This document shows positions 14,330-34,412 of a stretch of DNA of 34,412 bases, one piece after another. Within the stretch, counting starts at the first letter, position 1. Every line of letters starts with the position of its first letter. Both the position numbers and the translations under genes were made by a program. The stretch is taken from contig JAGNYI010000031.1 in the NCBI GenBank assembly GCA_017985015.1, forward strand, positions 1 to 34,412, written 5' to 3'. The notes under the pieces are model-generated. The model saw only the letters and a list, made by a program, of their open reading frames with translations, did not search any database and was not told the DNA's origin. The DNA comes from Giesbergeria sp. (GTDB taxonomy: Bacteria > Pseudomonadota > Gammaproteobacteria > Burkholderiales > Burkholderiaceae_C).

Positions 14330-15829
<1,500 letters not shown>

Positions 15830-18901: not shown

Positions 18902-19915
18902 ATGTCGCCCCTTTCCCCCTCCCCACCGATCAACGATCCGCAGTACAGCCGGCGCGCCTGGCTGACTCTGGCAGCGGCTGCTGCCGCTTCTCTGGCAGCG
19001 GGCTGCGGCAGCGGCAGCGGCACCACCGAGAAATTTCAGGCGACTTTCCTGCAGCCCTGGCAGAGCTATGAAACGCTGCCCGTCGCGGAATGGCGACGTC
19101 GACTCAAGCTCACGCGCGATCTCGGCTGCAACGAAATCATCTTGCAGTGGAGTGCACTGTATGGCGGCAGCTACCCCTGGACCATGCCTGAAGAGCTGAT
19201 CCAACTTCTGTTCGAAGAGGGTCGCAGCAATGGCATTGGCATTCGGGTGGGCCTGCCCTACGACGAAGGCTGGTGGAAAGTGCTGAGTGGCAAGGGAACA
19301 CGGCGCGTGTCGGAGTTTCTCGATCGCACGCAGGCTGTTTGCATGGACACTCTGAACAACAGCCGCTGGCCTGACCAGGCGGGTTTCCGTGGCTGGTATC
19401 TGCCCTACGAACTGGACCAGTACAACTGGGCCACCCCCGAGCGAAGGGAACTTCTGGTCCCCTGGTTGAGCGCAATCTCAGAGGCCTCTGCCAAGCGCTC
19501 TGCCCAACCGTTGGCCCTTTCAACTTTTTACAGCCAGGTGGCGACGACGGGTACTTTGGCGGGTCTGTGGGGCGACATTCTCGACGCGGTCCGGCTGCGT
19601 CCCATGCTGCAGGACGGCGTAGGCGTGGCGGGCCTTGGCAACTACGCAGGGCTGGAGCCTTTGCGCCTGCTGCTGCGCGAGCGCAACATTCCCTTTGACC
19701 TGATTGTGGAACTGTTCGAGCAACTGCCCTCCCTGCCCAATAGCAACGATGCGTTCCGGGCCAAACCAGCCTCGGGCGAGCGCATCAGTGAGCAGATGCA
19801 AGTGGCACGCAGCTTCGGAGCGGACCGCATCGTGGCCTTCGCCGTTGATCCCTGGTTGCTCAGCAGCTCGGACGATGAGCTGACCTTTCCGTATTCCTGG
19901 GGGAGCCAGGTCTAG
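18902..19915 (+). CDS. DUF4434-type lipoprotein with Tat-like signal, possible glycoside hydrolase
   Basis: The 337-residue product begins with SRRAWLTLAAA (Arg pair at 17-18), a hydrophobic stretch and the lipobox SLAAGC (Cys35). It is therefore probably a twin-arginine-exported lipoprotein. The mature part starts with TFLQPWQSYETL, then EEW-like VAEWRRRLKLTRDLGC and EIILQWSAL. This pattern is like the DUF4434 family, which has a predicted TIM-barrel fold related to glycoside hydrolases. It lies 96 bp upstream of the flavoprotein-carrier-ligase cassette on the same strand and faces the exopolysaccharide operon, so a role in polymer trimming, like BcsZ or PgaB in other systems, is a reasonable inference. 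Family assignment is from memory of its motifs. An upstream in-frame ATG at 18803 is rejected because it would bury the signal. Confidence 0.75.
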   Translation: MSPLSPSPPINDPQYSRRAWLTLAAAAAASLAAGCGSGSGTTEKFQATFLQPWQSYETLPVAEWRRRLKLTRDLGCNEIILQWSALYGGSYPWTMPEELIQLLFEEGRSNGIGIRVGLPYDEGWWKVLSGKGTRRVSEFLDRTQAVCMDTLNNSRWPDQAGFRGWYLPYELDQYNWATPERRELLVPWLSAISEASAKRSAQPLALSTFYSQVATTGTLAGLWGDILDAVRLRPMLQDGVGVAGLGNYAGLEPLRLLLRERNIPFDLIVELFEQLPSLPNSNDAFRAKPASGERISEQMQVARSFGADRIVAFAVDPWLLSSSDDELTFPYSWGSQV

Positions 19916-20011
19916 GCGTGACCGATCACCAGCCCTGCGTGGGCGCAGCCACAAGCTTGCTGAAATCGGGGGCGGCGACGAGAATGCTGATTTTCAGTGG
20001 AAACTTCTTGC

Positions 20012-21181
20012 ATGAAATCCGTCAGCGCCGTGCCTGAAGCCCAAGTCGAAGCATCCGCAACTGCCTCCTCCGCCGCCATTGCTGCCCAATACGCCGACGC
20101 AGTCGACCAGGCGGGCCAGCTGCCCGTGCAAGCCCTGGAAGCCTTGCGCGCTGAGGGCTTGCTCGGGCTGCTGGTTCCCCGTCGCTTCGGCGGACCCGAG
20201 TTGTCGCTGCGTGCCGTCACCAATATCTGTCGGCGACTGGCTGAGGGCTGCGCTTCGACGGGCTTGATTTTCGCCATGCACCAGTCGCAGGCTGCTGTCG
20301 CCATCGAGCATTCAGGCGAGAGCGAATGGCACCAGCAACTGCTGCTGCGCATGGCGCGCGAGCAAAGCTTGATTGCCTCTGCCACCACCGAAGGGGCCAC
20401 GGGTGGCTCCATCCGAACCAGTGCTTGCTTTATCGATCTGAAAGACAATGGGCTGCATTTGCACAAGAGCGGCTCGGTCATTTCCTATGCGCATGCGGCC
20501 GATGTTTTTCTGGTGTCGGCGCGCCGATCCGAAGATGCGGCGGCATCAGACCAGCAGCTGGTAGCGGTGCTGCGCGAGCAACTTGCATTGGAGTCGTGTG
20601 GCCGCTGGAATCCGCTGGGCATGCGCGGCGCCTGCACCGATCGCTTCAATCTCACCGCGCACTGCTCAGCTGAGCAGATCTTCCCTGGTCGCTTTGCCAA
20701 TGTGATGTCAGACACCATGCTGCCCAGCTCCCACATTTTGCTGGGCTCCGTGTGGCTGGGCATTGCGGCTGCGGCGCTCGGCCGGGCGCAGGCCTTTCTG
20801 CGCAAGCGCAACCGCGCGGGGGCCCCGCTCAACCCAATCGCAAATCTGCGTCTGGCCGAAGGCGAAGCCATGGTGCACCAGATGCGCGCGCTGATTGCGG
20901 CCAACCTGTCACTGTATGAGGCGGACGACTCCCAGACTTCCACCACCGACCGCATGGTGAGCTACAACACGCTCAAGGTCAGCGCCTCAGCGCTGGTGAT
21001 TCGCGTCACCGAGATTGCCTTGCGTATCTGTGGCATTCAGGGCTACATGGAGGATGGCGAGTTCTACCTGAGCCGCCATATCCGCGACGCCCACTCTGCC
21101 ATGGTGATGGTCAACGACGACCGCATTCTCGGCAGCCTCTCCAGCGTCGTGCTTGGCATGCCCATCACGCGCGACGTGTAA
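20012..21181 (+). CDS. Acyl-CoA dehydrogenase-family flavoprotein, atypical active site
   Basis: Flavoprotein of the acyl-CoA dehydrogenase fold, 389 residues. Visible blocks are the N-terminal helices with LLGLLVPRRFGG (50-61), the flavin-contact strand ASATTEGATGGS (122-133), the long C-terminal helices with LGIAAAALGRAQ (249-260), and GIQGYMEDGEFYLSRHIRDA (341-360). By hand alignment the usual catalytic Glu is absent: Val367 sits where medium-chain enzymes have it, and the isovaleryl-type position also lacks Glu (near Val247). It is followed after 20 bp by a carrier protein and then an adenylating ligase. This order is known from prolyl-carrier dehydrogenase sets that make pyrrole-2-carboxyl thioesters, so the substrate is probably carrier-bound. 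The ATG at 20012 is chosen; a GTG at 19997 is possible. Confidence 0.85.
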   Translation: MKSVSAVPEAQVEASATASSAAIAAQYADAVDQAGQLPVQALEALRAEGLLGLLVPRRFGGPELSLRAVTNICRRLAEGCASTGLIFAMHQSQAAVAIEHSGESEWHQQLLLRMAREQSLIASATTEGATGGSIRTSACFIDLKDNGLHLHKSGSVISYAHAADVFLVSARRSEDAAASDQQLVAVLREQLALESCGRWNPLGMRGACTDRFNLTAHCSAEQIFPGRFANVMSDTMLPSSHILLGSVWLGIAAAALGRAQAFLRKRNRAGAPLNPIANLRLAEGEAMVHQMRALIAANLSLYEADDSQTSTTDRMVSYNTLKVSASALVIRVTEIALRICGIQGYMEDGEFYLSRHIRDAHSAMVMVNDDRILGSLSSVVLGMPITRDV

Positions 21182-21201
21182 TTTTTCTCTCTTTCTACCC
21201 C

Positions 21202-21435
21202 ATGACCCCATCCGAAGTTGAAGACCAGCTGGCCGAAATGATCCAGGCCGTCATCCTGAAAAAAATCGGCCCCGACACCTTGCTTCTGGAGTCGGGCCTG
21301 CTCGATTCTGTTGCAGCCGTTGATTTGATGTTGGCCATCGAGAGCCGTTTCGGCTGTACCGTGCCGCTGACTGAAGTGGAAGAGCACCTGCATTCCTTGC
21401 GCACGCTGTCCACCTACGTTGCTGCACACTGCTGA
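21202..21435 (+). CDS. DltC-like acyl/aminoacyl carrier protein
   Basis: A 77-residue phosphopantetheine carrier. The attachment Ser36 is in LLESGLLDSVAAV. The following LMLAIESRFGCTVPLTEVEEHL resembles D-alanyl carrier protein DltC (LLAIENRF...VPITE) more than fatty-acid ACPs. It lies 20 bp after the flavoprotein gene and 16 bp before the ligase gene, so the three form one transcription unit. The stretch before its ATG is pyrimidine-rich with no Shine-Dalgarno, so translation may depend on the upstream gene. It probably holds the residue activated by the ligase and passes it either to the flavoprotein or to the MBOAT protein. Confidence 0.88.
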   Translation: MTPSEVEDQLAEMIQAVILKKIGPDTLLLESGLLDSVAAVDLMLAIESRFGCTVPLTEVEEHLHSLRTLSTYVAAHC

Positions 21436-21451
21436 CGCGGCGAGCACGGCT

Positions 21452-22891
21452 ATGTATTTCGACTTCGATGCCTGCCGTTTTCAAGACCATGAAAGCGACC
21501 ACGATGCCTGGGCAGTGATCGCTCATGACCGCAGCCTCACCTGGCAGCAACTGGAATCGCAGGCCCGCGCCTGGTGCGAGCACGCCCAGGCCCTCGGTCT
21601 GCGCGCTGATGCACCCATCGTCATCCGGGGACACAAGGAAGCGGCGTTCATGGTGGCGCTCACCGGCGCCCTGATGCTGCGTGCGCCCTTTGTTCCCGTG
21701 GACGCCGTGTACCCGCAAAGCCGACTGCAAAGCATCATCGACACCCTCGATGCCAACCTGCTTTATGACACCGCCACAGGCTCGTTCCATGTGCTGCGAG
21801 AGGGCCCGCCGCCAACGCTGGCCGAGAGCGGCCTGTGCTACATCATGTTCACTTCCGGCACCACTGGCCAGCCCAAGGGCGTGCAGATTGGACGCGAAAG
21901 TGTGCAGGGCCTGATCGACTGGATGCGGCTGGATTTCGACTTGGGCCCGCATCCGGTCTTCCTGAACCATACGGTGTTCAGCTTCGATGTCTCGCTCTAC
22001 GACGTGTTTGGAACACTCGCCTTGGGTGGCAGCATCATGATGCTGGATCGCGATACAGCTGCTGCACCATTGAAGGTGGCGGAGCAAATCACGCACCACG
22101 CGGTCAGCACCTGGGTCTCAACGCCCTCTTTTGCCCAGCAGCAATTGCTCAATCCTGGGTTCTCGCAAACGGGATTGCCGTCTCTGCGGATCTTTCTGTT
22201 TTGTGGCGAACCCTTGCCTGTGCCCTTGGCGCGCACGCTGCGAAAGCGTTTCCCTGATCTACCCATTCTCAACACCTACGGACCGACCGAGGCCACGGTA
22301 GCTACGACCTTGTTGCGCGTCGAAGACTCCCATCTGGCGAACGACGCCATCATGCCGATCGGGCGAGCCAAGCGAGACAGCTGGGTGTTCTGCGACGCAG
22401 GCGAGCTGTGCATTGCTGGGCCGCACGTCATGCGCGGCTATATCAACCGGCCGGACCTGAACGCCAGCCGCATGTTTGAACGCGATGGCCAGCGCGGTTT
22501 TCGCACCGGCGACCTCGGCACTGAAGCTGCTGACGGCATGCTTTACTGCCACGGGCGCATCGACGATCAGATCAAGCTCAATGGCTACCGCCTGGAACTG
22601 CTGGAAGTCGATGCCGCGTTGGCTACGCTGCCGGGCGCCCGCCCTGCCGCCACTGTGGCCCTGCGCCGCGCCAATGGCGCTGTGGCACGGCTGGTGGCGT
22701 TCGTGGAAACCGGCAGCACAGAGGCGCGTCTGCCTCAGGATTTGGCCGACTGGAAAGTGCTGCTGGCCAGAAAGCTCCCCCACTACATGCTGCCCACCGA
22801 GCTGCTGGCCTGCGAGCGCATGCCGGTATCGGTGAACTTCAAAATAGACCGCGCCAGGCTGGCCGAAATCTACCAAGCGCTCAACGCGTGA
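21452..22891 (+). CDS. DltA-like amino-acid adenylating ligase
   Basis: Stand-alone adenylation enzyme of 479 residues that should activate an amino acid with ATP and load it on the adjacent carrier. Core motifs are YIMFTSGTTGQPKGV (130-144), FSFDVSLYD (176-184, Asp179 for the amino group), NTYGPTEAT (274-282), YRTGD-type FRTGDLG, and the C-terminal Lys in NFKIDR. Regions around STPSF, NPGFSQ and FCGEPLP match DltA closely, including Cys251, equivalent to the Cys linked to D-alanine choice in DltA. My hand-read specificity residues (D, V, Y, V, L, C, T, V, A) agree with DltA at the last four places. A small amino acid such as alanine is therefore favoured over proline. The ATG at 21452 is chosen; an earlier in-frame codon at 21419 would overlap the carrier gene. 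Confidence 0.87.
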   Translation: MYFDFDACRFQDHESDHDAWAVIAHDRSLTWQQLESQARAWCEHAQALGLRADAPIVIRGHKEAAFMVALTGALMLRAPFVPVDAVYPQSRLQSIIDTLDANLLYDTATGSFHVLREGPPPTLAESGLCYIMFTSGTTGQPKGVQIGRESVQGLIDWMRLDFDLGPHPVFLNHTVFSFDVSLYDVFGTLALGGSIMMLDRDTAAAPLKVAEQITHHAVSTWVSTPSFAQQQLLNPGFSQTGLPSLRIFLFCGEPLPVPLARTLRKRFPDLPILNTYGPTEATVATTLLRVEDSHLANDAIMPIGRAKRDSWVFCDAGELCIAGPHVMRGYINRPDLNASRMFERDGQRGFRTGDLGTEAADGMLYCHGRIDDQIKLNGYRLELLEVDAALATLPGARPAATVALRRANGAVARLVAFVETGSTEARLPQDLADWKVLLARKLPHYMLPTELLACERMPVSVNFKIDRARLAEIYQALNA

Positions 22892-23582
22892 AGGGATCGG
22901 TTCGGCTAGGCTGAATCACCAGCTGCGGGGCAGCGGCAGATCCCGTCAAAAACAAGCTCAGATGATCGCCTGGCTCCAGGTGCGGGAGCGATTGCGGCGC
23001 GGTTTTGGCATCGCCACATTGCCCCGCAAGCGACGCCCTGACCGGGTTGACCGATCGCGCTGCCGAAGCGCTGGCGGCCACAGCGGAAAACACCGCTGTA
23101 CCCGCCGGTGCCAGCAGCAGATTCGCTGCAGAGCAGCCCGCGGCGAGGTTGTAAAACCGAAGCTCGGCCTTCAGCGCATCTTCGGTATCCGCCGTATCGT
23201 CGATGACTGTGAGTGCGTAGGAAGCAGCTTCGCGGCGCAGGGCCAATGTGCTGAAGCTGTCCGGGCGTACCTCCAAACGAGCGACTTCCTTTCCGTCAAT
23301 CTGCACACCAAAACGCTGCCCGCCCGGAACGATGGCGTAGCTGCCCGCAGGTGCCTTGCCACCAAGTTGCTGCACCGGGCCCTTGGCCACGCGAATGGCA
23401 AGCGCCACAGGCAGCGGATTGACAACCCGCACGTAAGAAGCACCTGCCGGCGGCCGGGGTGCATACAGCTGAGAGAGCGCGCCTTCCTGCGCCAAAGCAG
23501 GAGCAGCGGCCGCCAGCGAAAGCGCAACCGCTGCGCACTCCAAAGCCTTGGAGCGCGCAATGGGCAAAGAAGATGGAAACAT
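22881..23582 (-). CDS. AlgF-like periplasmic polysaccharide acylation protein
   Basis: Relative of AlgF, the periplasmic protein needed with AlgI, AlgJ and AlgX for alginate O-acetylation. The 233-residue product has a signal peptide ending near APALAQ (about 31). LYAPRPPAGASYVRVVN follows, matching the AlgF start (LYGP.AP.GS.FVR). Later blocks are SVNPVRASLAGQ and LEPGDHLSLFLTG, also AlgF-like, with a central insert holding one Cys pair candidate (AGCSAAN and AGQCGD). Its ATG overlaps the AlgI stop (TGATG at 23584-23580). Its 3' end overlaps that of the convergent ligase gene by 11 bp. Alternative upstream starts inside the AlgI frame are unlikely. Confidence 0.82.
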   Translation of the reverse strand: MFPSSLPIARSKALECAAVALSLAAAAPALAQEGALSQLYAPRPPAGASYVRVVNPLPVALAIRVAKGPVQQLGGKAPAGSYAIVPGGQRFGVQIDGKEVARLEVRPDSFSTLALRREAASYALTVIDDTADTEDALKAELRFYNLAAGCSAANLLLAPAGTAVFSAVAASASAARSVNPVRASLAGQCGDAKTAPQSLPHLEPGDHLSLFLTGSAAAPQLVIQPSRTDPFTR

Positions 23583-25165
23583 CAGAACTGAAAGTAAAGA
23601 AAACGGGTTTCCCGATGAAGATGCATCAGGCAGACCCACAGTACGACGAGAAACGCAAGGAGCCATGCGCCATTGGGGCGCCAGCGCAACCACCGCATAT
23701 CGGCCTCTTGAACGCGCGCCAATGCCGGTGAAAAATGTCCAAGGATCTGGTGCGAATTGGGCGCCAGCCAGACCACAGCAAGCAAAAGCGCCAACTGGAT
23801 GGTCAGCAGATGCCGACCGATCAGCAAGCGCCAGTCTTGCAGGCCCGCCAGTTCACTCAGTTCATGCTGCGGCCACTGCACGGTTTCCACCCCCTGCAAT
23901 CCCACCATGGCGCGCAGAAGCGCCATGGCTTCGTGTACGTTCGACGCGCGAAAGAAAGCGAAAGCCGCCATCACAGCCACAAAGGTGAGCAGCACACACG
24001 CACGGCTCCAACACCATTGAGACCATGCGCGGCGCGGCGCGAAGCGTTTGGCAAACAGCACGCGCCAGCCGTGATTCACGCACAGGTAGGCGCCGTGCAG
24101 CAGTCCGTAAATGGCGAACTGAAGGCCCGCCCCATGCCACACGCCCGCGAGCCCCATGGTGTAGAGGGTAGGCAGGGCAATCATCAGCGCAAACCCCCCC
24201 GGTGTGCGACTGCCCGCGGAGCCCACGGGCAAACCACGGCGATTGCGCCAGCGCGAGACCTGCATGGCGAGTGGGTAGTAAAGATAGGCGGTGAGATAGC
24301 GCGTGAGCGTCATATGCCAACGCGCCCAGAAGTCAATGATGCAGTTGGCCTTGTACGGCGAGTTGAAGTTAAGGGGGAAGCGGATGCCGAACATCTTGGC
24401 CAGGCCTAGTGCCATATCGGAATAGCCAGAAAAGTCGAAGTACAGTTGCATGGCGTAGGCCAGGCTGGTGGACCAAGCGCCCCAGAACTGCAGCTCTGCG
24501 GGCGCCACAAATCCGGCATCGGCGTACGCTGCAATACCATCTGCAAAGAGTACCTTCTTGGCCAGACCAATGACAAACAGGGTGCCGCCGATGGACAGGT
24601 TGTCCGCCCGGAACCGGTAGGTTTCCGGCTCAGCGAACTGCGGCATCATCTCTTTGTGGTGCAGCACCGGACCCGCAATCAAGTGGGGGAAAAACGTGAC
24701 GAACAGCGTGTGCTTGAGCAGGCTGGGCGATTGCACGAAACCGGCGCGGCAATCGAGCAGATAGCCGATCTGGGTAAAAGTGAAGAAGGAAATACCCAGT
24801 GGCAGGAGGATACCTTCGGGGCGATCGGCATACAGGCCCCAACCCTGAAGCACGCCCAGCAGAGTGACGAAATACTTGTAGTAGAAGAGCAGCGTCAGGT
24901 TGCTCGCTACACCGAACGCCACCATCCAGCCCTGACGGCGTGGCGCACTGGCCTGCTGAAGAACATACCGGCTGACCACGTGGTTGAACAGAATGGATGC
25001 CGCCAGCAGCACTACAAAGCGAGGATTCCACCAGCCATAAAACACGAACGATGCGGCGCACAACCACAGCGCCGCCCAACGCAGGCGAACGCGCCCAAGC
25101 AGGTAGTAGCCCCCCAGAGCCACCGGCAGAAACAAAAACAAAAAGAGATAGGAGTTGAAGAGCAA
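23582..25165 (-). CDS. algI: AlgI-type MBOAT O-acyltransferase
   Basis: Polytopic inner-membrane acyltransferase that moves an acyl group across the membrane for attachment to an exported polysaccharide. The 527-residue product (from TTG 25165) starts LLFNSYLFLFLFLPVAL, typical of the family. It carries LGISFFTFTQIGYL, FFPHLIAGPV, LYFDFSGYSDMALG, DFWARWHMTLTRYL (His284) and the catalytic-site GVWHGAG (His344). DltB of the D-alanylation pathway belongs to the same superfamily. This matters because DltA- and DltC-like genes lie just beyond the operon end. No ATG start is present: TTG at 25165 fits the family N-terminus, while TTG at 25189 would overlap the upstream stop. The ATG of the algF-like gene follows with a TGATG overlap. 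Confidence 0.93.
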   Translation of the reverse strand: MLFNSYLFLFLFLPVALGGYYLLGRVRLRWAALWLCAASFVFYGWWNPRFVVLLAASILFNHVVSRYVLQQASAPRRQGWMVAFGVASNLTLLFYYKYFVTLLGVLQGWGLYADRPEGILLPLGISFFTFTQIGYLLDCRAGFVQSPSLLKHTLFVTFFPHLIAGPVLHHKEMMPQFAEPETYRFRADNLSIGGTLFVIGLAKKVLFADGIAAYADAGFVAPAELQFWGAWSTSLAYAMQLYFDFSGYSDMALGLAKMFGIRFPLNFNSPYKANCIIDFWARWHMTLTRYLTAYLYYPLAMQVSRWRNRRGLPVGSAGSRTPGGFALMIALPTLYTMGLAGVWHGAGLQFAIYGLLHGAYLCVNHGWRVLFAKRFAPRRAWSQWCWSRACVLLTFVAVMAAFAFFRASNVHEAMALLRAMVGLQGVETVQWPQHELSELAGLQDWRLLIGRHLLTIQLALLLAVVWLAPNSHQILGHFSPALARVQEADMRWLRWRPNGAWLLAFLVVLWVCLMHLHRETRFLYFQF

Positions 25166-25172
25166 GGCGAAC

Positions 25173-26285
25173 TCAGCGAATGGCGTCAAGCGCGCGCTGC
25201 TCGGCCGGGGTCAGCGGCAGCGACAAGGACAATTCGGAAAATTGCCACACGACCAGCTTGAGGCTATGCGGCAGAGTCCGCTGCCGGTCCAGCGCCGCCA
25301 GCATGGCGCCTGAAAAATAGCCACCGTCCTGGCTCAGATTCCAAACTTCGCCGCCAAGTTGTCGGCCCAGGCGTTCTGCGAACTCGCTGCGAAGACCATT
25401 GGAGTCACCGAGCAAAATTACTTGTGCACTTGTCCCTTCGTCAAGCAGCCCACCGCTGCGCACCGGCTCGATGTGTTCGGGCACAACCTGCTCAAGCTCA
25501 GGACGCCACCCTTTTGGCGCATGCTCCAGCCCAGCAAGCACGATCAAGTCGCCCATGCGCGGCACCGCTTCCGCTCCACTGGACGAGGTGAACTTCTGCG
25601 TCCCTTTGCCGCCCAGAATGGGAAGTGCTGCCTTTGCGCTGATGTCGGCCGCCGCGTCGGCGCCTTCTTGCGTCATGTGTACGTCGGTTCGGTAAAACGC
25701 CTGTGGCACAGCGCCCAGGGCAGACCGAAGATCAACAAAGGGCACTTCCGCGCCAGCGAGTGCATGCTGCCATTCATCCAGCCGTCCCGGGAGAGGCGCA
25801 GCCACTCGCAGACCACAGAGCTGGGCTGCCTGTACGCGCGATTTGTCGGGCACGGTAAGCACCAGCAGATGAATGCCAGTTTTTTTCCATTGTGCAGCCC
25901 AGTGGCGCATCAGCTCCGCCCGCTGTGCAAATGCACCGCTGGAGCCCGGCGCTGGGCGCAGGCCGTCGCGATAGAACAGCCAACCAGGACAGCCCTCAAG
26001 CACCTGAGGGCCCAAGTCTCCAAAAAAACGGAAGCGCAGCGCGGCCGATGCCCGATCAACCCAAGTCTGGCCAGGCAGCGTGCCCAGCGCCTTGTTGGCC
26101 TGTTTGCCCGCCTGGCCGTCCACCCAGGTGGACGGTGCCCATTCACTGGGCGCAAAGCGCAACTGACTGAGGCGCAGCACGCCCCAGACAAAGCCCGCAG
26201 CCAGGGCCAGCGCAACCACGATCGCGATACGCCGATGCCCGGAGAGGTCTGATTCGCTCGGCGGCAGCGGCGCTGGTATCGCCAT
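25173..26285 (-). CDS. AlgJ/AlgX-like SGNH acyltransferase, membrane-anchored
   Basis: Periplasmic SGNH-hydrolase-like protein of the alginate acetylation type, tethered by one N-terminal transmembrane helix (about 19-38). The 370-residue product shows CPGWLFYRDG early, the Asp/His pair in YRTDVHMTQEGA (Asp201, His203), and the nucleophile block LLGDSNG (Ser295), so the catalytic triad looks complete. It would take the acyl group delivered by the AlgI-type MBOAT and place it on the polymer or on the partner protein. Its ATG at 26285 overlaps the stop of the preceding AlgX-like gene (TGATG), and its own stop is 7 bp before the TTG proposed for AlgI. Confidence 0.85.
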   Translation of the reverse strand: MAIPAPLPPSESDLSGHRRIAIVVALALAAGFVWGVLRLSQLRFAPSEWAPSTWVDGQAGKQANKALGTLPGQTWVDRASAALRFRFFGDLGPQVLEGCPGWLFYRDGLRPAPGSSGAFAQRAELMRHWAAQWKKTGIHLLVLTVPDKSRVQAAQLCGLRVAAPLPGRLDEWQHALAGAEVPFVDLRSALGAVPQAFYRTDVHMTQEGADAAADISAKAALPILGGKGTQKFTSSSGAEAVPRMGDLIVLAGLEHAPKGWRPELEQVVPEHIEPVRSGGLLDEGTSAQVILLGDSNGLRSEFAERLGRQLGGEVWNLSQDGGYFSGAMLAALDRQRTLPHSLKLVVWQFSELSLSLPLTPAEQRALDAIR

Positions 26286-27286
26286 CACGCCGGCAGTGCT
26301 GCGCCAAGCCTCCGGCTCCAATCCTGGGCAGAGAGGACAGAAGCTGCGTCCCATAGGCCTTCCGCATCGGGACCGAGGTGGAAATTGGGCTCAAACAATT
26401 GCCAGACCACCACTTGGGGTGGCTGCTGGCGAAACGCCGCAGACTCCAGATATTCGATCAACACGCTCCAAAAACCCACGTCGCCTGGCTTCCAATTCAC
26501 GGAAACCGGCCGGTCAATCAGATTCGACAATTTTTGCGGAAACCCGAAATATGGCTGCACCATGCTGTTGCCCGTCACGTGAACAGGGGCGATGGCCGCA
26601 TCAAGCAAGCCCGTCGTCTGGGTTTGGCGGCGTACCGTAAAAATCTCACGCCCAGCGGCGCGCCGTTGCTCTGGCGAGAGAAAGCGCTCTGCAAGGTCGC
26701 CATACCGCCGTTCCTTGGATATTGCGCCCAGCGCGAGCCCGGTACCGGCGGCGCCAGCCAACTTGGGAACCAACTGGTGAATGAGGTCCGCAGTAGCTTG
26801 TGCGGTGGCATCGGCCGCCGACTGGGTCCAGTGTTGATCGGTGCGGTAGTAGACCGGCTCGCCGTTTGCCTGAAGGGCGCGATAAAGTCGCTCCACATCG
26901 AAACCAGGCACGCCGGCTGCAGCCAATCGATCCCGGATGCCTGCGTAGCGACCAAGCATTTCGGGCGTCAGGGCGTCGACAGCGGGAAGTTTGTCGGCGT
27001 AAAACAGCTTCTTGCTGGGCAGCACCGGTGCCACCAGCGCAATGCCGCGCGCAGCAAGCCGCTTGTGCACCTCAGCGACACGTGCCACCGTGGCGTCAAT
27101 GGCCGGCCAATTGGGTTCGTCCGTGGTGCCCCATGCGGGGAACAGATAGTTGTCTTTGCCGATGATTGCCAGAATATCGGGCTGCGCGATGGCTACCTGC
27201 GGCAAGGACATACCAAGAGTGAATCCGAGCGACAAGCCAAGCAAGCCTCGCCGAGAGACTGCGGAAGGAGCAATAGGAGTTTTCAT
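26285..27286 (-). CDS. AlgX/AlgJ-like SGNH protein with Tat-like signal
   Basis: Second alginate-type SGNH protein, 333 residues, with a twin-arginine-like signal SRRGLLGLSLGFTLG (Arg12, Arg13) ending near QVAIAQ. The mature part has IGKDNYLFPAWG, the Asp/His pair in YYRTDQHWTQSAA (Asp150, His152), and VTGNSMVQPYFGF. The last block puts Ser241 in a GNS rather than GDS context, as the block-I nucleophile. Tat-type export of an AlgX-like protein would be unusual, since AlgX uses the Sec route. No carbohydrate-binding module like that of AlgX is obvious after the catalytic part, so it may be closer to AlgJ. It is separated from the NfrA-like gene by 37 bp. Confidence 0.82.
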   Translation of the reverse strand: MKTPIAPSAVSRRGLLGLSLGFTLGMSLPQVAIAQPDILAIIGKDNYLFPAWGTTDEPNWPAIDATVARVAEVHKRLAARGIALVAPVLPSKKLFYADKLPAVDALTPEMLGRYAGIRDRLAAAGVPGFDVERLYRALQANGEPVYYRTDQHWTQSAADATAQATADLIHQLVPKLAGAAGTGLALGAISKERRYGDLAERFLSPEQRRAAGREIFTVRRQTQTTGLLDAAIAPVHVTGNSMVQPYFGFPQKLSNLIDRPVSVNWKPGDVGFWSVLIEYLESAAFRQQPPQVVVWQLFEPNFHLGPDAEGLWDAASVLSAQDWSRRLGAALPA

Positions 27287-27323: not shown

Positions 27324-30300
27324 TCAATACGCGAATGTCAAGCTCAGGAAGACGCCCTTGGCGCGGTCTTTAACGCCACCCAGGCGCGTGCGGTATTGCA
27401 GACTTCCGTCCACATAGGAGCTTTGCGCACGGTATTTATCGCCTTCCAGCCAATAGCGCAAGTTGACGCCAACGCCCGCGCCTACAGACCAATCGCCGTT
27501 GATGCCGACCAGATCAAAATTGGAGGCGCCTGCCACCGGTGTGCCCGTTGCACGATTGCGGTCCGAGTACCAGTCGGCAGCGAGCGACACATGGGGAAAG
27601 AACACCAGCCGATCGCTGTAGTCAGAAAGGTAGCTGCGGCCCACCCGCACCTCACTGGCCGCGAAAGCCTGGCCGCGCTTGAGTCTGCCCTCGGAGCGTC
27701 CCAGCACCTGGCCTGAACTGTCGCGCAGGGTGTAGGCCGTCGGGGCGTCCATCAAGGTGTACCCAGCCTGTACGTAGCCTTCCATCGTGAACCAATTGCG
27801 GGCATCAAGCCTGAGCCCCGTGCCCTCATAAAACCCATACAGCACATAGGCCTGCCAGGCTCCGGCAGCCGCGTCGGTACGGTAATCGACCGCTCCGGCC
27901 TGCTGGTTCAACAAGCAGCGCACGGCACTGGAATCCGCATTCAGAGAGCCACTGCGTGCCGCGTTGCCCAGAAAAAACTGCCTCTCCAGTCCAAAGGTGA
28001 TGTTCTTTTCGGTCCATGGCGTGTAGCGCGCGCCAATTGCGCCGGTCGTCGTGGGAAAACCGGAGACGGCCTGGCTACGGGTCTCCGCAACATTGATCGT
28101 TCCTCCGCAAGGATCCGGGACAGTTTGTGCACCCGTGACATCGGCGCCACTGTGCAGGGTATTCGACAAGCGCCCATAGACGTCGAACGTGCTGCTGCTG
28201 GAGTTGAGAAACTCCGGCGGGCGCCAATACGCCTCAACGGTGCTGAAAGCGGCGTTTCCAGGCAGTGATACCGGCTGACCGACCAATGCATTGGTCGGTG
28301 CACGCGCACCGCGATAGCCAACGGACGCGGTTGCGCCCCACTCGCGCGAAAAATTGGCCACGGCGCTTCGGGTATCGAATCGCTGCTGCGCATCGAGTGC
28401 AAACTTCCCATTGTCTGCGTCGTCAATCGCCTGACGCAACATGGCTGCAGCCGCGATCCGGTTGCCACTCGCAGCCAAGGCATATGCCTCGTCCAGAATG
28501 TTCGTTGGCGGGGCATTGCCCGTGCTTCGAGCCGCCACAAAATCCTGCAAAGCCAGTTCAGGTTGGCGATTCGCAAGGCGCAAGTAGCCGCGCTGACGCA
28601 GTAAATTGGCGTCTTGTGGCTGAGCCAACAGGGCTTGGTCCAGTCGGGCCAGAGCTTCTTGCTGTTCGTTCGGTGTTCCTGCGGCCAATGCCGTAGTGAG
28701 CAAAATCTGGTTCGATTCGCTCTTTGGATCCTCGGCGATCGCTCTGCGCGCCAGCGCAATGGCTTGTTCATAGCGCTTCTGGCCGTAGGCGGCATAAGCG
28801 CGCGCTGCGGGGCTGTCCGTACCTGGGGCGTCCCAAGGCTGCATCTCGCAGACTGTCCCATAGGGCGTGTCGTGACACAGCTGCAAGGGGGCATAGGCAG
28901 TGGCAGGCAAGACTTCTTGCGCGGTCCAGAAGCTGCCAAGCGCCCTCGCGGCCTGGCGCCGGGACGCGGCCTGTTCGTCATCGAGCGCAACAGACTCAAG
29001 GAGCTTCTCGACACGCGCTGGCTGCCGATCGGCCAGCGCAAGGTCGGCGCCAATCAGGCGCACATTGCGCCGCAAGGATTCATCGATCCAATCCTGGGCC
29101 AGAACGGCGTCGATGTCCTGCTGCGCAGCTCCGCCACGCCCCAGTAGCTGACGCAAATAGGCCCGCTGAATACGGATTGTGGCGTTTTCTTCGTCTGTCT
29201 CCAGAGCCTCCCCTGCCGCCGCCTCTGCACCCGCAAAGTCATTGGTTGCTTGCAAGGCGCTGATTAACAGCAAGCGATGGCTGGCCACATCCGGGGCGCG
29301 GCGCACGGCCTCCTGGGCTTCCGGAAGCGCCTCCTGCGGCAGATTTTTTGCCAAGGCCTCATAGGCTTTCTGCGCGTGTTGGAAAGCGATGGCCTGCTCG
29401 GCCAGTCGCATCAACGCCCCAATCGCTTCGGCGTTTGGCGCGCCCAGTGCAATCGCCTGGCGGCCTGCCACGATCGTTTCCTCATAGCGTTGGAGATCTT
29501 CCAAAGCGTTGAGCCACAGCAAAGACCATGGCCCTTGGCTTGGATCGGTGCGCACGGCAATCTCGGCGTTGGACGCCGCATCCGCAAACTTTCCATCCGC
29601 GAGCTGCTCGTAAGCAAGCTTGGCAATGGGGAAGGCCCTGCGGTATTCGGCGGTGGTGGGAACTTCTGAAACACCTGCAGGGGCGGGCCGCAAGTTTTCC
29701 AAGGCCGCTTGCAATTCGGGACTGCCGTGGCCGCTTGCAATGGCCTCTGCTGCGGCTCGCTCGGCCTCATCATGACGATTGAGCTTCTGCAATGCGTAGA
29801 CACGCAGTTGGTACAAACGAACCACATCGGGCCGAAGTTTCAACGCGGCATCGGCGCGGCGCAGGGCAGTCTCGTAGTCACCGCGAGCGTAGGCTTTGTA
29901 GCCCTGATCAGACAAGCGCCAGGCCAGTCCACGCAGTCGCCCACCTTGCCGGGCACGGGCCGCAGGCCGGTGCGACCTTGGTTCAAGCGCTTGCGGAGTG
30001 TCTGACTGAGGGCTGTCCGCTTGCGAAGCACGCGGTGTCGGCATTACCAGTTCTGCTGGACTTTGCGGTCTGGGCGCCTGCCACATCGGCAAAGCAGGCA
30101 TCTGCAAACGCACATAGCGACGCAATGCGCGCTGGAATTCGTCGTCTACCACTGTGTCTGCAGGCCCACGGCCCCAGGGCGCAGGGTCTGTCCGCTCAAT
30201 AGCCTGCAACGCCGTCTGCCAAGCAGATGGAGGTTTCGGCGGGACGGGGGCAGGAGTCGACGCAGACTTGGCCAGCCTGTCTGGCGCCGGCGAATCCTGG

Positions 30301-30599
30301 GGCCGCAATACCAGCTCAGCAGAGAGGCGCAAGCGCGCAACCGTCGCATCGCTCGGTTCGCTTGGCCGCTCGGCCAAGGCAAGCTCGTTGTCAGCAGAAG
30401 ATCGCCCACCCACAGGATGCAGAGCTCCGAGTGACGTGAGCTGCAAGGACATGGTTAGTCGCAGCGGGCTCTCCTCGCCACGCCCCTGACTCTGCGGCGA
30501 CTGCGTGGGGACACGCATCCCGGCGGCAAGAAGGGGAGCGGCAGGCCATGCCATGGCAAGGGCCACGGCCAACAAGGTTCGACTTCGCAAAGGCTTCAT
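27324..30599 (-). CDS. NfrA-like TPR and outer-membrane beta-barrel protein
   Basis: Likely outer-membrane exporter of the polysaccharide, related to E. coli NfrA (phage N4 adsorption protein A). The 1091-residue product has a signal peptide (about 1-26) and a Pro/Ser-rich linker to about 220. An array of TPR-like helices follows at roughly 225-720 (for example YKAYARGDYETALRRADAAL and AYGQKRYEQAIALARRAI). The C-terminal portion of about 350 residues has alternating-strand beta character and ends KGVFLSLTFAY, with the terminal aromatic typical of BAM substrates. The layout matches NfrA and the BcsC/PelB/PgaA principle of periplasmic TPR plus barrel. The ATG overlaps the glycosyltransferase stop as ATGA (30599-30596), coupling the two. 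Confidence 0.88.
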   Translation of the reverse strand: MKPLRSRTLLAVALAMAWPAAPLLAAGMRVPTQSPQSQGRGEESPLRLTMSLQLTSLGALHPVGGRSSADNELALAERPSEPSDATVARLRLSAELVLRPQDSPAPDRLAKSASTPAPVPPKPPSAWQTALQAIERTDPAPWGRGPADTVVDDEFQRALRRYVRLQMPALPMWQAPRPQSPAELVMPTPRASQADSPQSDTPQALEPRSHRPAARARQGGRLRGLAWRLSDQGYKAYARGDYETALRRADAALKLRPDVVRLYQLRVYALQKLNRHDEAERAAAEAIASGHGSPELQAALENLRPAPAGVSEVPTTAEYRRAFPIAKLAYEQLADGKFADAASNAEIAVRTDPSQGPWSLLWLNALEDLQRYEETIVAGRQAIALGAPNAEAIGALMRLAEQAIAFQHAQKAYEALAKNLPQEALPEAQEAVRRAPDVASHRLLLISALQATNDFAGAEAAAGEALETDEENATIRIQRAYLRQLLGRGGAAQQDIDAVLAQDWIDESLRRNVRLIGADLALADRQPARVEKLLESVALDDEQAASRRQAARALGSFWTAQEVLPATAYAPLQLCHDTPYGTVCEMQPWDAPGTDSPAARAYAAYGQKRYEQAIALARRAIAEDPKSESNQILLTTALAAGTPNEQQEALARLDQALLAQPQDANLLRQRGYLRLANRQPELALQDFVAARSTGNAPPTNILDEAYALAASGNRIAAAAMLRQAIDDADNGKFALDAQQRFDTRSAVANFSREWGATASVGYRGARAPTNALVGQPVSLPGNAAFSTVEAYWRPPEFLNSSSSTFDVYGRLSNTLHSGADVTGAQTVPDPCGGTINVAETRSQAVSGFPTTTGAIGARYTPWTEKNITFGLERQFFLGNAARSGSLNADSSAVRCLLNQQAGAVDYRTDAAAGAWQAYVLYGFYEGTGLRLDARNWFTMEGYVQAGYTLMDAPTAYTLRDSSGQVLGRSEGRLKRGQAFAASEVRVGRSYLSDYSDRLVFFPHVSLAADWYSDRNRATGTPVAGASNFDLVGINGDWSVGAGVGVNLRYWLEGDKYRAQSSYVDGSLQYRTRLGGVKDRAKGVFLSLTFAY

Positions 30600-32296
30600 A
30601 CGGTAACAACGTCCTGCATGGCGGGCGGCGGCGCGGGCGCGGGCGCCAACTCGGCCTGCTGGAAGGAAATGGCTTCCTCCAAAGTGTGCTGGTCCAGCCA
30701 GCCTTGCTCCAGCAATATGCGGCCCAGGGGCCGCCCCAAATCCCTTTGCATGGCCAGCGCCTGCTCCAGATGGTCGGCATCAATGGCACGCCAGGACAGC
30801 AGCACCTCGCCCAGGCGCTGGCGATGGGACTCCAGTTGATCGGCAGACGGGAAATCGTGCGCGGTCTTGTCCCAGAGCAGCCGGGTACCAAAAATTTTGT
30901 GGGAGAGAAACAAACGCCAGGCGCGCGCCGCCGCCATGGCGTTAATGAAATTGCCGATGACCATGCGCGGAATGGAAAGAAAACCGTGTTCCCAACCATA
31001 CATCTTGCCCACAAAATAGGCTCGCTGCACCACACGCAACAGCAAGGCCACAGCGTTGAGCCCCATGACGGTCATGAACCATCCGTTGGTATGGAACAAG
31101 GAGGGGTAGTACACCGTCCACAAGCCGAGCAGGTCTGCGGCATAAAACAGAAGAAAATTCAGCATCAGAACGTAGCCAAGGATCGCCACGAAGGCAGTAA
31201 CCAAGCCTTTGCGATCCCGAAACAACAAGTATTTGGTGGCCAGCGACCCCGCCCAGCCCACTTGCTGCCAGCCCTGCAGGCCAATGCCAATGGTCCAACG
31301 CGCCTTCTGACGGTATGCAGCGCGGAAGGTATCCGGAAAAAATTCGCGCACCCCCAAAGGCATCTGAATCGAACCTATCTTCTCGCGTCCAAGACCAAAC
31401 CATGCGGTGCGGCGGGTCAAATAGTCCACGTCGAATTTGCCAAAAATCTGTTTCATACCCATCCGACTGAGCCGGGTACCAATGTCGTAGTCTTCCGTCA
31501 GACTCTCCACATTGAAAGGCTCGTTATGGGACGTTGCCGCTAAGAGCTGCATCGCACTGTGGGAAAAGCAGGTGCCGACCCCGGCCGATGGGACCATGTT
31601 GGAAAGGCTCTCGCGCACGACCAAATCCTTGCTGTGCCATTCGGCGAACTCATCCATATAGGTGCCCGCTACCAGTTCGAACCAGCTGCGCTCGAGCGAA
31701 GTCACCGGCAACTGGATGAAATCCATCCGCGGCAGCAGGTAGTTGTAGTACTTCAGCTCCAGCGGGTGAAGCACGTCTTCGCTATCGTGCAGTATGAAAC
31801 CGGCAAAGGTATGGGACTGTATTCGCTCCTGCTGAAAGGCGGCCTGCACGATCCAGTTGAGACAGTCGGCCTTGCAAGTGGGCCCGTCGTGCGGCACCTC
31901 CACACGCACCAGCTGCCGATAGCGCCTGCGCATGCGCTCGACTTCCTCGATGGTGCGGTGATCGTTGCGGTAGGTGCCCACAAATATCGTGTAATTCCGA
32001 TACTCAAGCGTTGACACCATGTTGCTGAGCATGGGCGCGATCACGTCGAATTCCAGCCATGCTGGGACCATGATGGCCATGGGCTGCTCAGGGTGCTCCC
32101 GCAGCTGCTCGGCCGTCAGTCGCTTGTATTGGCGCCGCACTACCAACGAGCGGTAGCTCTCGCGAACCCAGTACCAGGCATCGATAAACAGATCGTCGAT
32201 GCTGGACAGCAGGATGATCACGCCGACCGCCGCCGTCAATATCTCAAGCCCGCGGTAGTAGTCGGCAAAAAGGTAGGGCCAGTACAGCGTGAACAT
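30596..32296 (-). CDS. NfrB-like GT2 glycosyltransferase with C-terminal MshEN c-di-GMP-binding domain
   Basis: Inner-membrane polysaccharide synthase of 566 residues related to E. coli NfrB. One N-terminal helix (about 18-33) precedes the cytoplasmic GT2 domain, which has HDSED (170-174), TEDYD (267-271) and RQKARW (329-334), the D,D,D,Q/RxxRW-type signature. About three further helices lie between 365 and 450. Residues 494-546 form an MshEN domain. The first 24-residue motif runs from RLGEVL at 494 to Gln517 and the second from PLGRIL at 523 to Gln546, separated by exactly five residues. All expected Leu/Ile/Gln positions are filled. MshEN domains bind c-di-GMP, so polymer synthesis is probably switched on by it. 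The sugar substrate is unknown. Confidence 0.92.
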   Translation of the reverse strand: MFTLYWPYLFADYYRGLEILTAAVGVIILLSSIDDLFIDAWYWVRESYRSLVVRRQYKRLTAEQLREHPEQPMAIMVPAWLEFDVIAPMLSNMVSTLEYRNYTIFVGTYRNDHRTIEEVERMRRRYRQLVRVEVPHDGPTCKADCLNWIVQAAFQQERIQSHTFAGFILHDSEDVLHPLELKYYNYLLPRMDFIQLPVTSLERSWFELVAGTYMDEFAEWHSKDLVVRESLSNMVPSAGVGTCFSHSAMQLLAATSHNEPFNVESLTEDYDIGTRLSRMGMKQIFGKFDVDYLTRRTAWFGLGREKIGSIQMPLGVREFFPDTFRAAYRQKARWTIGIGLQGWQQVGWAGSLATKYLLFRDRKGLVTAFVAILGYVLMLNFLLFYAADLLGLWTVYYPSLFHTNGWFMTVMGLNAVALLLRVVQRAYFVGKMYGWEHGFLSIPRMVIGNFINAMAAARAWRLFLSHKIFGTRLLWDKTAHDFPSADQLESHRQRLGEVLLSWRAIDADHLEQALAMQRDLGRPLGRILLEQGWLDQHTLEEAISFQQAELAPAPAPPPAMQDVVTV

Positions 32297-32325
32297 GCTG
32301 AGCGATCAGTAGAAAATGCGCACGC

Positions 32326-34412
32326 TTACGAAGACTTCCGGCGGTTGCGCCTGATGCGATAGGCCCAGACGACCAACAGCAGCAGCAGCAGGAGCGCGAC
32401 GCTCACAAGAGGCACGCTCCAGGACAGATAACGCCGCCATTCGTAGAAGGCGCTTTCGCCTGCCCGAGGAGGCTGACTCGCCGATGGGTTGCTGCTGTCC
32501 ACCCAGCTCACTGGACCCTCAGCACCGATCAGAGCGATATCCCCGCGGTTAAGTACGAAGGGCTTGTCTTGCGTTGCAGTCTGTGCGCCCAGCGGCTGCC
32601 AAAGGAGACCTGGCTGAGCGTGCGCACTGGTCACCTCGACGGTGCTCAGGCGCGCCAATCCATTGACGTCAATCCAAGGAGCGTTTTTCCCGTTGATTCG
32701 CAGTTGTGCGTCCTTGACGACAACTTTCGAACTGGCGCCATCCACCGGCACCTGCATGGCGAGGAAGGGACGACTCGGTGTGAACGCCTGGCCCTGCACG
32801 GCCACCACAAACTCGGCGCGTATGGGCGTGACGCCTGCCGCAACGGCCATGCGAACGACGCGCATCAAACTTGCGGGTGCGTCCGCCAGATAGGCTTCGG
32901 GAACGATGATCTGCGGTGTGCCTGACATCAAGGGAAGCAATCCGACGAAGGTACCATCGGGCTCTGAGTCGCCACCGCGCACGTAGCTGGTGGGCAACAC
33001 GTTCACCGGAAATGCCTGCGGTGTTTCGTTGCAGTCATTGGAATAGGGCTGGCGCTGAAAAGATACGCGCACCACATTTCTCAGTCCGAGCGCATAGCCC
33101 GGAATGCGCGCGTCGAGACGCTCGGGACGCCCATCGGCCTGGAGGCGTTTGGCCGAAAGCAAGACGTTGTTCCAGAACACCGACGCCACCGGGCGGGTAG
33201 AGGAAGCACCGGGCGCGGCGGCCACGTCCACCACCAGATCGGACGGCATCCGGCCATTGACCGCCACCGCTCCCAGCGGAATGGTCGCCGTCCAGTCCCC
33301 CCGTGCCAGGACATCGAAACTCGCATCGCTGCCACCGAGGTTGGTCAGGCGAATGGCCGAGCGGTCTAACACGTCGGGCGCATTGGCTTCTGCCACGGTC
33401 ACTTCTCGCGTGGTCATGGCGCTGCGCCAGACATCGGCAAAAACGCCTGCGGCCTTGGCACCACCATCCTCGGACACCACGATCACCGGACGCGCCCCCA
33501 GGGTCGCCAGACGAATCGAATGCGACGGCAGGGCTCCGGCCGCCACCGCTGTCTGCAAACTGCGCCAGCTTGCGAAAGAACGCGCCGCATCAGCGTCACC
33601 ACCCAATTGAGCGCCCAGCGCATCGAGGGCAGCAGCAATTTCCTGTTGCAGAGCGGTGTCGACTACAGCGATGTCGCCGGTAGCAAGCGAAGAGCCCAGC
33701 ACCACCAAAGCGCCCACCTCGGCGGCATTCTTTAGCACGTATTTGGCATTGCCTTGTGCAAGACCGGAAAAAGCCGGCAGGTTTGCCAGTCCAGCGGGCA
33801 CTTGCCATCCGGTCGTGTCAATCGTCTCGCCAGGAGCGGGGAATGACTTCACCATGACACGGCGATTGGCCTGCTCTAGTGCGACGCCAAGTCGCCACGC
33901 GGTGTCGTAGCTGGCCTTACTGACCTTGCGAGACGCAACCATCAGCGTCGGATGCGCCGGCAAGGTGAGCCAGGCATCGGCCAGACTGGTCAGAGCGGCA
34001 CTGCTGAAACGGTAGTTGAAGCGCGTGTCCGCAGAGACCGACAGCACGTTGCCCGTGGATCGCTCCACTTCGCAAATGCGTTGTCCCACATTGTTCTGCC
34101 AGTTCACGCGAAAGCGCAGAAAGCCGTTGGTACGTTGGCTGGTGTCCACCTTCAACACCTGGCTGGCATCGCCTTCGGAGACTTCAATGCGGCGCGAATG
34201 TACGGGCCTGCCATTGACGAACAGCACCATCGAAGTGCGCCCCTCTTCGGCCTTGTAGTAGTGCGCGCGGAAGTCAACGGTGGCATCGGCCAACTTCAGC
34301 ATCTGGGGGACCGGAAGATAGAACTCCTGGCGACTGTCGAAGCCGCTCAGCAACACGTCGTCTCCGAACCCGAGGTCCGACAGGGAGAAACTGCGGTTGA
34401 CCCAGGTGTCCC
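32326..34412 (-). CDS. BcsB-like periplasmic polysaccharide synthase subunit, 5' end outside window
   Basis: Relative of cellulose synthase subunit BcsB, the periplasmic, membrane-anchored partner of the catalytic synthase. About 694 residues are visible; the frame is open to the window edge, so the signal peptide is missing. The visible N-terminal part carries beta-rich carbohydrate-binding-like segments (ATVDFRAHYYKAEEGRTSMV, VNGRPVHSRRI, LRFRVNW). Flavodoxin-like segments follow, including TLMVASRKVS. The C-terminus is one transmembrane helix (about the last 30 residues) and a basic tail RIRRNRRKSS. It is 29 bp upstream of the NfrB-like gene, so it is the first visible gene of the operon. 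E. coli nfrAB is, as far as I recall, not accompanied by a BcsB homologue, making this a mixed system. Confidence 0.85.
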   Translation of the reverse strand, partial: DTWVNRSFSLSDLGFGDDVLLSGFDSRQEFYLPVPQMLKLADATVDFRAHYYKAEEGRTSMVLFVNGRPVHSRRIEVSEGDASQVLKVDTSQRTNGFLRFRVNWQNNVGQRICEVERSTGNVLSVSADTRFNYRFSSAALTSLADAWLTLPAHPTLMVASRKVSKASYDTAWRLGVALEQANRRVMVKSFPAPGETIDTTGWQVPAGLANLPAFSGLAQGNAKYVLKNAAEVGALVVLGSSLATGDIAVVDTALQQEIAAALDALGAQLGGDADAARSFASWRSLQTAVAAGALPSHSIRLATLGARPVIVVSEDGGAKAAGVFADVWRSAMTTREVTVAEANAPDVLDRSAIRLTNLGGSDASFDVLARGDWTATIPLGAVAVNGRMPSDLVVDVAAAPGASSTRPVASVFWNNVLLSAKRLQADGRPERLDARIPGYALGLRNVVRVSFQRQPYSNDCNETPQAFPVNVLPTSYVRGGDSEPDGTFVGLLPLMSGTPQIIVPEAYLADAPASLMRVVRMAVAAGVTPIRAEFVVAVQGQAFTPSRPFLAMQVPVDGASSKVVVKDAQLRINGKNAPWIDVNGLARLSTVEVTSAHAQPGLLWQPLGAQTATQDKPFVLNRGDIALIGAEGPVSWVDSSNPSASQPPRAGESAFYEWRRYLSWSVPLVSVALLLLLLLVVWAYRIRRNRRKSS

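Follow-up and report, generated by a model that had tools for sequence, protein, structure and literature searches.

A putative carrier-fed acylation module with alginate-type and Dlt-type parts in an Nfr-type exopolysaccharide locus of Giesbergeria sp.

In the PatA/PatB pathway, a membrane-bound O-acyltransferase (MBOAT) moves an acyl group to the tyrosine of a C-terminal FXYXXF motif, shown in PatA to carry acyl-Tyr, and then to the serine of an SGNH protein; PatA uses acetyl-CoA, and, according to the same paper, a carrier is absent from MBOAT/SGNH pathways apart from Dlt (PMC12148441, 2025). Genes of the alginate-acetylation type have also been described together with nfr genes. Simplicispira suum has an alginate-acetyltransferase-like gene group inside its nfr cluster (PMC8669469, 2021), and in Achromobacter xylosoxidans nfrA, nfrB, wecB, BcsB, and O-acetyltransferase homologues occur together (PMC8669472, 2021); the main texts read both as acetylation, and the terms “ligase,” “acyl carrier,” and “dehydrogenase” appear in neither. 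Here, we describe a related locus on the 34,412-nucleotide contig JAGNYI010000031.1 of Giesbergeria sp. (C66; the window, meaning the whole stretch analyzed, is this entire contig, from an assembly of 3.37 Mb in 110 contigs that is 95.6% complete), in which an Nfr and AlgI operon converges with a cassette encoding an amino-acid ligase, its carrier, and an acyl-CoA-dehydrogenase-family flavoprotein (ACAD). With a probability of roughly 60%, we propose that this locus carries out a carrier-fed, amino-acid-derived acylation of an Nfr-type exopolysaccharide. An original prediction made from the letters of this stretch had offered it as a candidate new exopolysaccharide system; the joining of NfrAB to alginate-type acylation is already reported in PMC8669469 and PMC8669472, and what we did not find in print is the ligase, carrier, and ACAD as partners: searches of the open-access literature showed no paper linking a ligase or carrier to an Nfr or AlgI cluster.

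Pfam and NCBIfam scans of the window proteins recovered every gene that the prediction had named. On the minus strand, from 34412 downward, lie BcsB, NfrB with its MshEN-type motif, NfrA, two ALGX-domain SGNH proteins of the AlgX/AlgJ type, AlgI, and AlgF; convergent with them on the plus strand lie a DUF4434 protein, the ACAD, a 77-aa DltC-like carrier, and a DltA-like ligase. Starts were set by alignment with relatives for the ACAD (20012), the ligase (21452), and AlgI (25165). Packing is tight, with the start of the second SGNH gene (AlgX2) falling on the stop of the first (AlgX1), the AlgF start ATG at 23582 overlapping the AlgI stop, and the ligase and AlgF genes overlapping tail to tail by 11 bases.

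The minus-strand AlgI/Nfr operon and the plus-strand carrier cassette are one conserved unit. A scan of genome contigs seeded with an ACAD alignment kept 80 loci from 120 relatives and, because of that seed, is unable to test whether the ACAD is always present. An ACAD of 66 to 91% identity was found in 17 of the 80 loci, and all 17 also encode DUF4434, carrier, and ligase; AlgF, AlgI, AlgX2, and AlgX1 accompany them in 16, the 17th (L044) stopping at a contig end. These loci belong to Xylophilus, Paracidovorax, Pseudacidovorax, Simplicispira, Ideonella, Acidovorax, and a Burkholderiaceae metagenome-assembled genome. In the remaining 63 loci (ACAD of at most 45% identity, some on short contigs), the cluster was not seen in the stretch examined. 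That the cluster is kept across relatives makes a chance grouping unlikely. Its layout varies in places: one locus (L054) has the BcsB-NfrB part inverted and no NfrA in its stretch, and in genome G148 the plus-strand cassette (L025) and the Alg run (L162) are on two contigs.

Genome samples gave the same picture. Among 250 genomes of the family, an ACAD at an E value of 1e-30 was present in 20, five of which, with at least 67% identity, sit in the cluster; NfrB was found in 16 and the ligase in nine, all nine inside the NfrB set. Among 300 genomes of the order, NfrB was found in 14 and the ligase profile in seven, four of them new: G384, which has the cluster and a second, dlt-operon ligase, and G480, G476, and G463, in which there was no NfrB match and the ligases lie outside any Nfr cluster. 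The class sample yielded NfrB in 7 of 321 genomes and the ligase in 1 of 239, the window's own. Pooling the family, order, and class samples gave 33 genomes with NfrB. Cluster-type AlgI (at least 804.9 bits) occurs in 10 of these, exactly the 10 that carry the cluster ligase; the AlgI next in rank has 450 bits and is encoded at a different place in its genome. A genome-wide search of the other 23 found no cluster-type ligase (best 233 bits, in a 3617-aa open frame), and neither AlgI nor ligase was seen in the NfrB stretches fetched from them, some of which reach contig ends; the NfrB loci of G012, G109, G507, and G522 do so, and the genome-wide AlgI and ligase searches cover these genomes. The co-occurrence that the original prediction proposed to examine was therefore 10 of 10 against 0 of 23. 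As to the cassette occurring without the operon, no ACAD of the window's type with at least 66% identity was found outside the cluster, a search that did not extend to the second ACAD type described below, and the ligases outside it (the second copy in G384 and those of G480, G476, and G463) are dlt-like, with no cluster ACAD in their stretches. One further locus, L160 of G117, has an Nfr cluster with AlgF and, on the opposite strand, an AlgX1-like SGNH gene and a weak DUF4434 match; neither AlgI nor ligase was found in its stretch.

Two ARRANGEMENTS occur among the 10 ligase-plus-AlgI genomes, five with the window's ACAD type (type A) and five with another (type B; G219, G018, G231, G147, and G384, loci L150 to L153 and L170). 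In variant B, one strand reads BcsB, NfrB, NfrA, AlgX1, AlgX2, AlgI, carrier, ligase, AlgF, and ACAD, with DUF4434 convergent. The position of carrier and ligase between AlgI and AlgF is the strongest single hint that they serve AlgI. ACAD-B has as its best PDB match a mitochondrial long-chain acyl-CoA dehydrogenase (6.1e-101) and keeps the Glu of the QERL motif; it scores only about 18 to 19 bits against the window's ACAD-A, and the two belong to different subfamilies. Some ACAD stands beside the ligase and Alg genes in all 10 genomes (in G148 split over two contigs), and its recruitment from two subfamilies suggests, on the simplest reading, that a flavoprotein step is needed and has been supplied twice. 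The variant B ligase of L153 (5215-6707, in G147) is split over two overlapping reading frames, through either a frameshift or an error in the sequence; the ligase alignment, pocket table, and trees exclude it. Genome G384 carries both a variant B cluster (L170) and a separate dlt-type operon (L172).

The donor side of the window consists of the carrier (21202..21435, plus strand; PP-binding 5.8e-09), which has a phosphopantetheine site at GLLDSV, and the amino-acid:carrier ligase (21452..22891, plus strand; Pfam AMP-binding 2.2e-55), which scores 356 and 355 bits against two DltA models. At the positions that we take to form the usual ten-letter pocket code, the window ligase reads DVYVLCTVAK and two dlt-operon ligases of the same order read DLYVLCTVAK, so that 9 of 10 letters are equal; the type A cluster ligases as a group fit DVY(V/T)(L/V)CTVAK, and two further dlt-like ligases have DLYVLC(T/S)VAK. 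Overall identity to the two dlt-operon ligases is 54%, and the Cys of FCGE is kept. Because the type A pocket is nearly equal to that of the dlt ligases, alanine or a close analogue is a likely substrate in the window; for alanine itself, the pocket letters would support about even odds. In the ligase trees, which have long branches and were used to ask whether types A and B arose together apart from the dlt ligases, holding types A and B together gave an approximately unbiased P value (p-AU) of 0.132, and holding type A with the two dlt ligases gave 0.021. The dlt-like operons themselves (L171 in G480 and L172 in G384) encode a ligase, a DltB-like MBOAT without the shuttle motif, a small, DltX-like open reading frame (ORF) ending in FQYQQF, and a carrier; a DltD protein was confirmed in L171 (8.4e-58), and no ACAD match was found in the stretch examined of either operon.

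The window's ACAD-A (20012..21181, plus strand; Pfam Acyl-CoA_dh_N 1e-13, Acyl-CoA_dh_1 5.6e-11) departs from the ordinary dehydrogenases. At what we take to be the medium-chain catalytic position (Glu of YEGT), it has Val (VNDDR), and the long-chain Glu is replaced by Ser in pairwise alignments or by Val in the multiple alignment; no row of the ACAD-A family has Glu at either position. An acidic residue at position 375, three places after the medium-chain Glu position, is present in 31 of 32 family rows and, judging from the alignment, may be a replacement base for the lost Glu. For L057, whose ACAD is in two pieces, one piece only entered this motif comparison. The predicted structure of ACAD-A (mean predicted local distance difference test [pLDDT] 89.1) is matched about equally by dehydrogenases, a desulfinase, and flavin monooxygenases. 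It is plausible that ACAD-A oxidizes a carrier-bound aminoacyl group in some way, and we hold such a further step on the carrier to be tentative, with the odds running against it. Relatives of at most 45% identity lie in some cases beside ligases of the nonribosomal peptide synthetase type in actinobacteria; five neighborhoods were listed and gave no functional assignment. In L064 (9923-12552) of Streptomyces flavidovirens, a relative of 42% identity directly precedes an adenylating ligase.

On the transfer side, AlgI (23582..25165, minus strand; Pfam MBOAT 3.4e-19) ends in FLYFQF, as do all 26 cluster rows aligned (24 distinct, several being one species from two collections). The two SGNH proteins, AlgX1 (26285..27286; Pfam ALGX 1.1e-56) and AlgX2 (25173..26285; Pfam ALGX 3.2e-59), both on the minus strand, have likely catalytic triads, in alignment numbering D150, H152, and S241 in the first and D224, H226, and S318 in the second, that are invariant in 26 of 26 rows. 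The AlgF-like periplasmic adaptor (22881..23582, minus strand; Pfam AlgF 3.7e-16) completes the set. No separate DltX-like ORF was found, AlgI being the only window ORF of at least 25 aa to end in FXYXXF. With the shuttle motif inside AlgI, the SGNH residues kept, and no DltX-like ORF, the module resembles a transferase of the alginate type coupled to a donor of the Dlt type. The DltB-likeness of the cluster AlgI was considered as evidence of a carrier donor and dropped, since control AlgI proteins score equally.

The synthesis and export genes point to a polymer of the Nfr type. The processive glycosyltransferase NfrB (30596..32296, minus strand; NF012033 924 bits, GT2 4.3e-34) has a C-terminal MshE-related cyclic di-GMP (c-di-GMP) motif at residues 494 to 546 (NF053729, 55.5 bits versus a cutoff of 38) and shares 43% identity with E. 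coli NfrB across 541 aa; its 571.8 bits against the E. coli NfrB equivalog NF008411 are below the cutoff of 1170. NfrA (27324..30599, minus strand; Pfam NfrA_C 3.2e-21 and TPR repeats) is an outer-membrane export protein assigned at the family level (NfrA_C), since direct comparison with E. coli NfrA listed no match. The periplasmic BcsB-like protein (32326..34412, minus strand; Pfam BcsB 6.8e-07) is cut by the contig end, and longer BcsB homologues adjoin NfrB in L023, L024, and L026. A WecB-type gene (Epimerase_2) lies at 332-1369, at the end of another contig of the same assembly, C55. Since the genus mate G225 and L024 both have such a gene immediately upstream of BcsB, the operon appears to continue on C55.

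The plus-strand run also contains an Nfr-type gene, in that the DUF4434 protein (18902..19915, plus strand; Pfam DUF4434 1.2e-47) belongs to the YbcH family, with 25.5% identity to E. coli YbcH over 200 aa (BLAST E value 2e-11 in a three-protein search). Its N terminus has, by eye, a lipobox-like LAAGC. The predicted structure is a TIM barrel (mean pLDDT 74.7) most similar in the PDB to a putative alpha-L-fucosidase (4h41, TM score 0.56) and then mainly to GH10 xylanases, and conserved Glu residues lie in WYLPYE and ELFEQ. From this model, the protein probably serves the Nfr system as a glycoside-hydrolase-like accessory in the periplasm.

We propose a model in which this region supplies the modifying half of a single exopolysaccharide locus; its substrate, oxidation, acyl-Tyr transfer, and polymer identity are what we infer from the gene set. 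c-di-GMP would switch on NfrB, which would polymerize a sugar, by analogy with E. coli perhaps from UDP-N-acetylmannosamine, and BcsB and NfrA would guide the chain across the periplasm and the outer membrane. The DltA-like ligase would act in the cytoplasm, adenylating a small amino acid (for the variant in the window, D-alanine or something close to it is probable) and loading it onto the DltC-like carrier, on which the ACAD flavoprotein may oxidize the bound group. AlgI would then move the acyl group off the carrier arm to the Tyr in its own C-terminal FLYFQF motif; from there, the two SGNH proteins with AlgF would hand it on, by way of Ser, to a polymer hydroxyl. The prediction that the carrier pathway supplies an aminoacyl or oxidized aminoacyl group to AlgI is borne out as far as co-occurrence makes the genes one unit; the choice of alanine would follow from the pocket comparison, and oxidation draws on the steady presence of an ACAD, of which the window's form lacks the usual Glu. 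A more far-reaching version of the proposal is that an AlgI-class MBOAT/SGNH machine fed by a dedicated carrier places an ACAD-altered, amino-acid-derived group (for example, a dehydroamino, imino, 2-oxo, or N-oxidized acyl) on a c-di-GMP-controlled exopolysaccharide, a solution reached twice via two ACAD subfamilies. This version is tentative, and we would give it clearly less than even odds. To our knowledge, no such polymer carries such a substituent.

Several observations weigh against carrier-fed acylation as proposed here. The sampled genomes are related, so that the co-occurrence counts are not independent events. The window ligase scores below both DltA cutoffs (476 and 560), as does a dlt-operon ligase of the same order (374 bits versus 560), and the carrier reaches 42.9 bits against the dltC model TIGR01688, under its cutoff of 52.35. 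In the PDB, linear gramicidin synthase A (3.9e-90) ranks first for the ligase, slightly ahead of DltA (1.4e-86), and the dlt ligases that serve as the reference themselves have a putative substrate. The variant B pocket, DFFAVGSCSK, is unlike that of type A, and the substrate is therefore probably not identical in all clusters. No AcpS-family match was found in the window's assembly at its 95.6% completeness; there is one in a genus mate. The absence of Glu at the usual positions of ACAD-A means that ordinary dehydrogenation is not supported in the window. Lastly, the cluster AlgI scores 162 and 179 bits against the DltB model, and six AlgI proteins from elsewhere score 145 to 182 bits, five of the six also ending in FXYXXF; with controls alike in score and motif, the AlgI sequence neither proves nor excludes a carrier donor.

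Plain O-acetylation is one alternative, with AlgI using acetyl-CoA and the ligase, carrier, and ACAD serving something else that travels with the cluster. AlgI, AlgF, and AlgX/J are the alginate acetylation set, related clusters are interpreted as acetyltransferases in PMC8669469 and PMC8669472, acetyl-CoA is the donor for PatA, an MBOAT of the same class (PMC12148441), and the cluster AlgI is no more DltB-like than the controls. We nonetheless consider it improbable, given that the ligase accompanies cluster-type AlgI in 10 of 10 NfrB genomes and is found in 0 of the 23 others, that variant B has carrier and ligase inside the operon, and that the same partners are kept in two orientations. 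A stronger contender is Dlt-like aminoacylation without oxidation, which would leave a plain alanyl ester and make the ACAD an accessory that, for example, provides or edits the substrate or acts on another metabolite. The nearly equal pockets, the missing Glu of ACAD-A, and the dlt operons L171 and L172, with no ACAD match in their stretches, are all consistent with it; an ACAD of either subfamily in 10 of 10 ligase-plus-AlgI genomes and the LCAD-type (long-chain acyl-CoA dehydrogenase) Glu kept by ACAD-B argue for a flavoprotein step instead. Being a narrower form of carrier-fed acylation, with which its odds overlap, it is a real possibility, if short of an even chance.

Two other accounts concern the chemistry on the carrier. 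ACAD-A could be a flavin monooxygenase that oxidizes the amino nitrogen or another position, as its lost Glu positions and the presence of KijD3 (a nitrososynthase), DszC, TdsC, and DnmZ among the 50 fold matches listed would allow. Short-chain dehydrogenases and a desulfinase match too, however, the acidic residue in 31 of 32 rows could act as a base, no flavin reductase family was among the Pfam matches of the cluster genes, and ACAD-B is of the normal dehydrogenase type; we regard this form of the carrier-fed reading, whose odds again overlap, as doubtful. A ligase, a carrier, and an ACAD also make up the proline trio known from prodigiosin and pyoluteorin, and the polymer would then bear pyrrolyl esters formed by pyrrole-2-carboxylate chemistry. 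The same three protein types do stand together here, and ACAD-B reaches 199 and 222 bits against the RedW-family dehydrogenase model. Both values are far below the cutoff of 650, ACAD-A reaches 58 bits, ligase A has a dlt pocket, and the best proline ligase in its PDB list ranks below DltA (7e-52 versus 1.4e-86), which together make pyrrole chemistry very improbable. Carrier-fed, amino-acid-derived acylation is the reading that we prefer.

If that reading is true, clusters currently interpreted as acetyltransferases produce a different ester, and the locus is an exception to the statement in PMC12148441 that no MBOAT/SGNH system except Dlt has a carrier. Through the carrier, it would be straightforward to tell which donor supplies an AlgI-type MBOAT. 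A matrix polymer would gain positive charge from an amino-acid ester, much as teichoic acids do from D-alanine, and an oxidized amino-acid ester would be new chemistry on a polysaccharide. As the polymer family is that of the N4-like phage receptor, the decoration may also bear on phage adsorption.

Elsewhere in the window, positions 9268-13110 (plus strand) encode a 1281-aa protein that combines several PAS domains with GGDEF and EAL domains and is possibly a c-di-GMP enzyme; its gene is about 6 kb away from the cluster, and other genes lie between them. A bacterial alpha-2-macroglobulin-like protein of 2002 aa is encoded at 3159-9164 (minus strand). An argininosuccinate-lyase-like ORF occupies 14333-16528 (minus strand); its Pfam match starts at residue 266 of 732, and the residues before that may represent an overextended ORF or a genuine extra domain.

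Comparison with described systems places the locus between several of them. It shares with the E. coli Nfr system, the glycan receptor pathway of phage N4, an NfrB with an MshEN-type motif, NfrA, and a YbcH-family protein, and both have WecB, which in relatives of the window adjoins BcsB; unlike the window cluster, the E. coli stretch around nfrBA-ybcH is without BcsB, acylation genes, or carrier genes. The prolyl-carrier dehydrogenase trio of the pyrrole pathways (PigA/RedW) likewise combines an amino-acid ligase, a separate carrier, and an ACAD-family enzyme but differs in that the window proteins score far below the family cutoffs and the ligase has a dlt-type pocket. With alginate O-acetylation in Pseudomonas aeruginosa (AlgI, AlgJ, AlgX, and AlgF), the locus shares a single run of genes for an MBOAT bearing the C-terminal shuttle motif, a pair of SGNH proteins, and AlgF. 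It differs in having NfrB as the polymer synthase of its operon; the Pfam scan of the window genes showed no alginate polymerase family, and a ligase and carrier accompany the cluster-type AlgI in all 10 NfrB genomes having it; a dedicated ligase and carrier with AlgI make it probable that the donor is not acetyl-CoA. In common with Dlt D-alanylation (DltA, DltB, DltC, DltD, and DltX), the locus has a nearly equal ligase pocket, a DltC-kind carrier, and an MBOAT-SGNH relay. It differs from Dlt in that its MBOAT is of the AlgI type with a built-in shuttle motif rather than DltB with a separate DltX, in that both of its SGNH proteins match ALGX only and not DltD, and in that its cluster adds AlgF, an ACAD, and an exopolysaccharide synthase.

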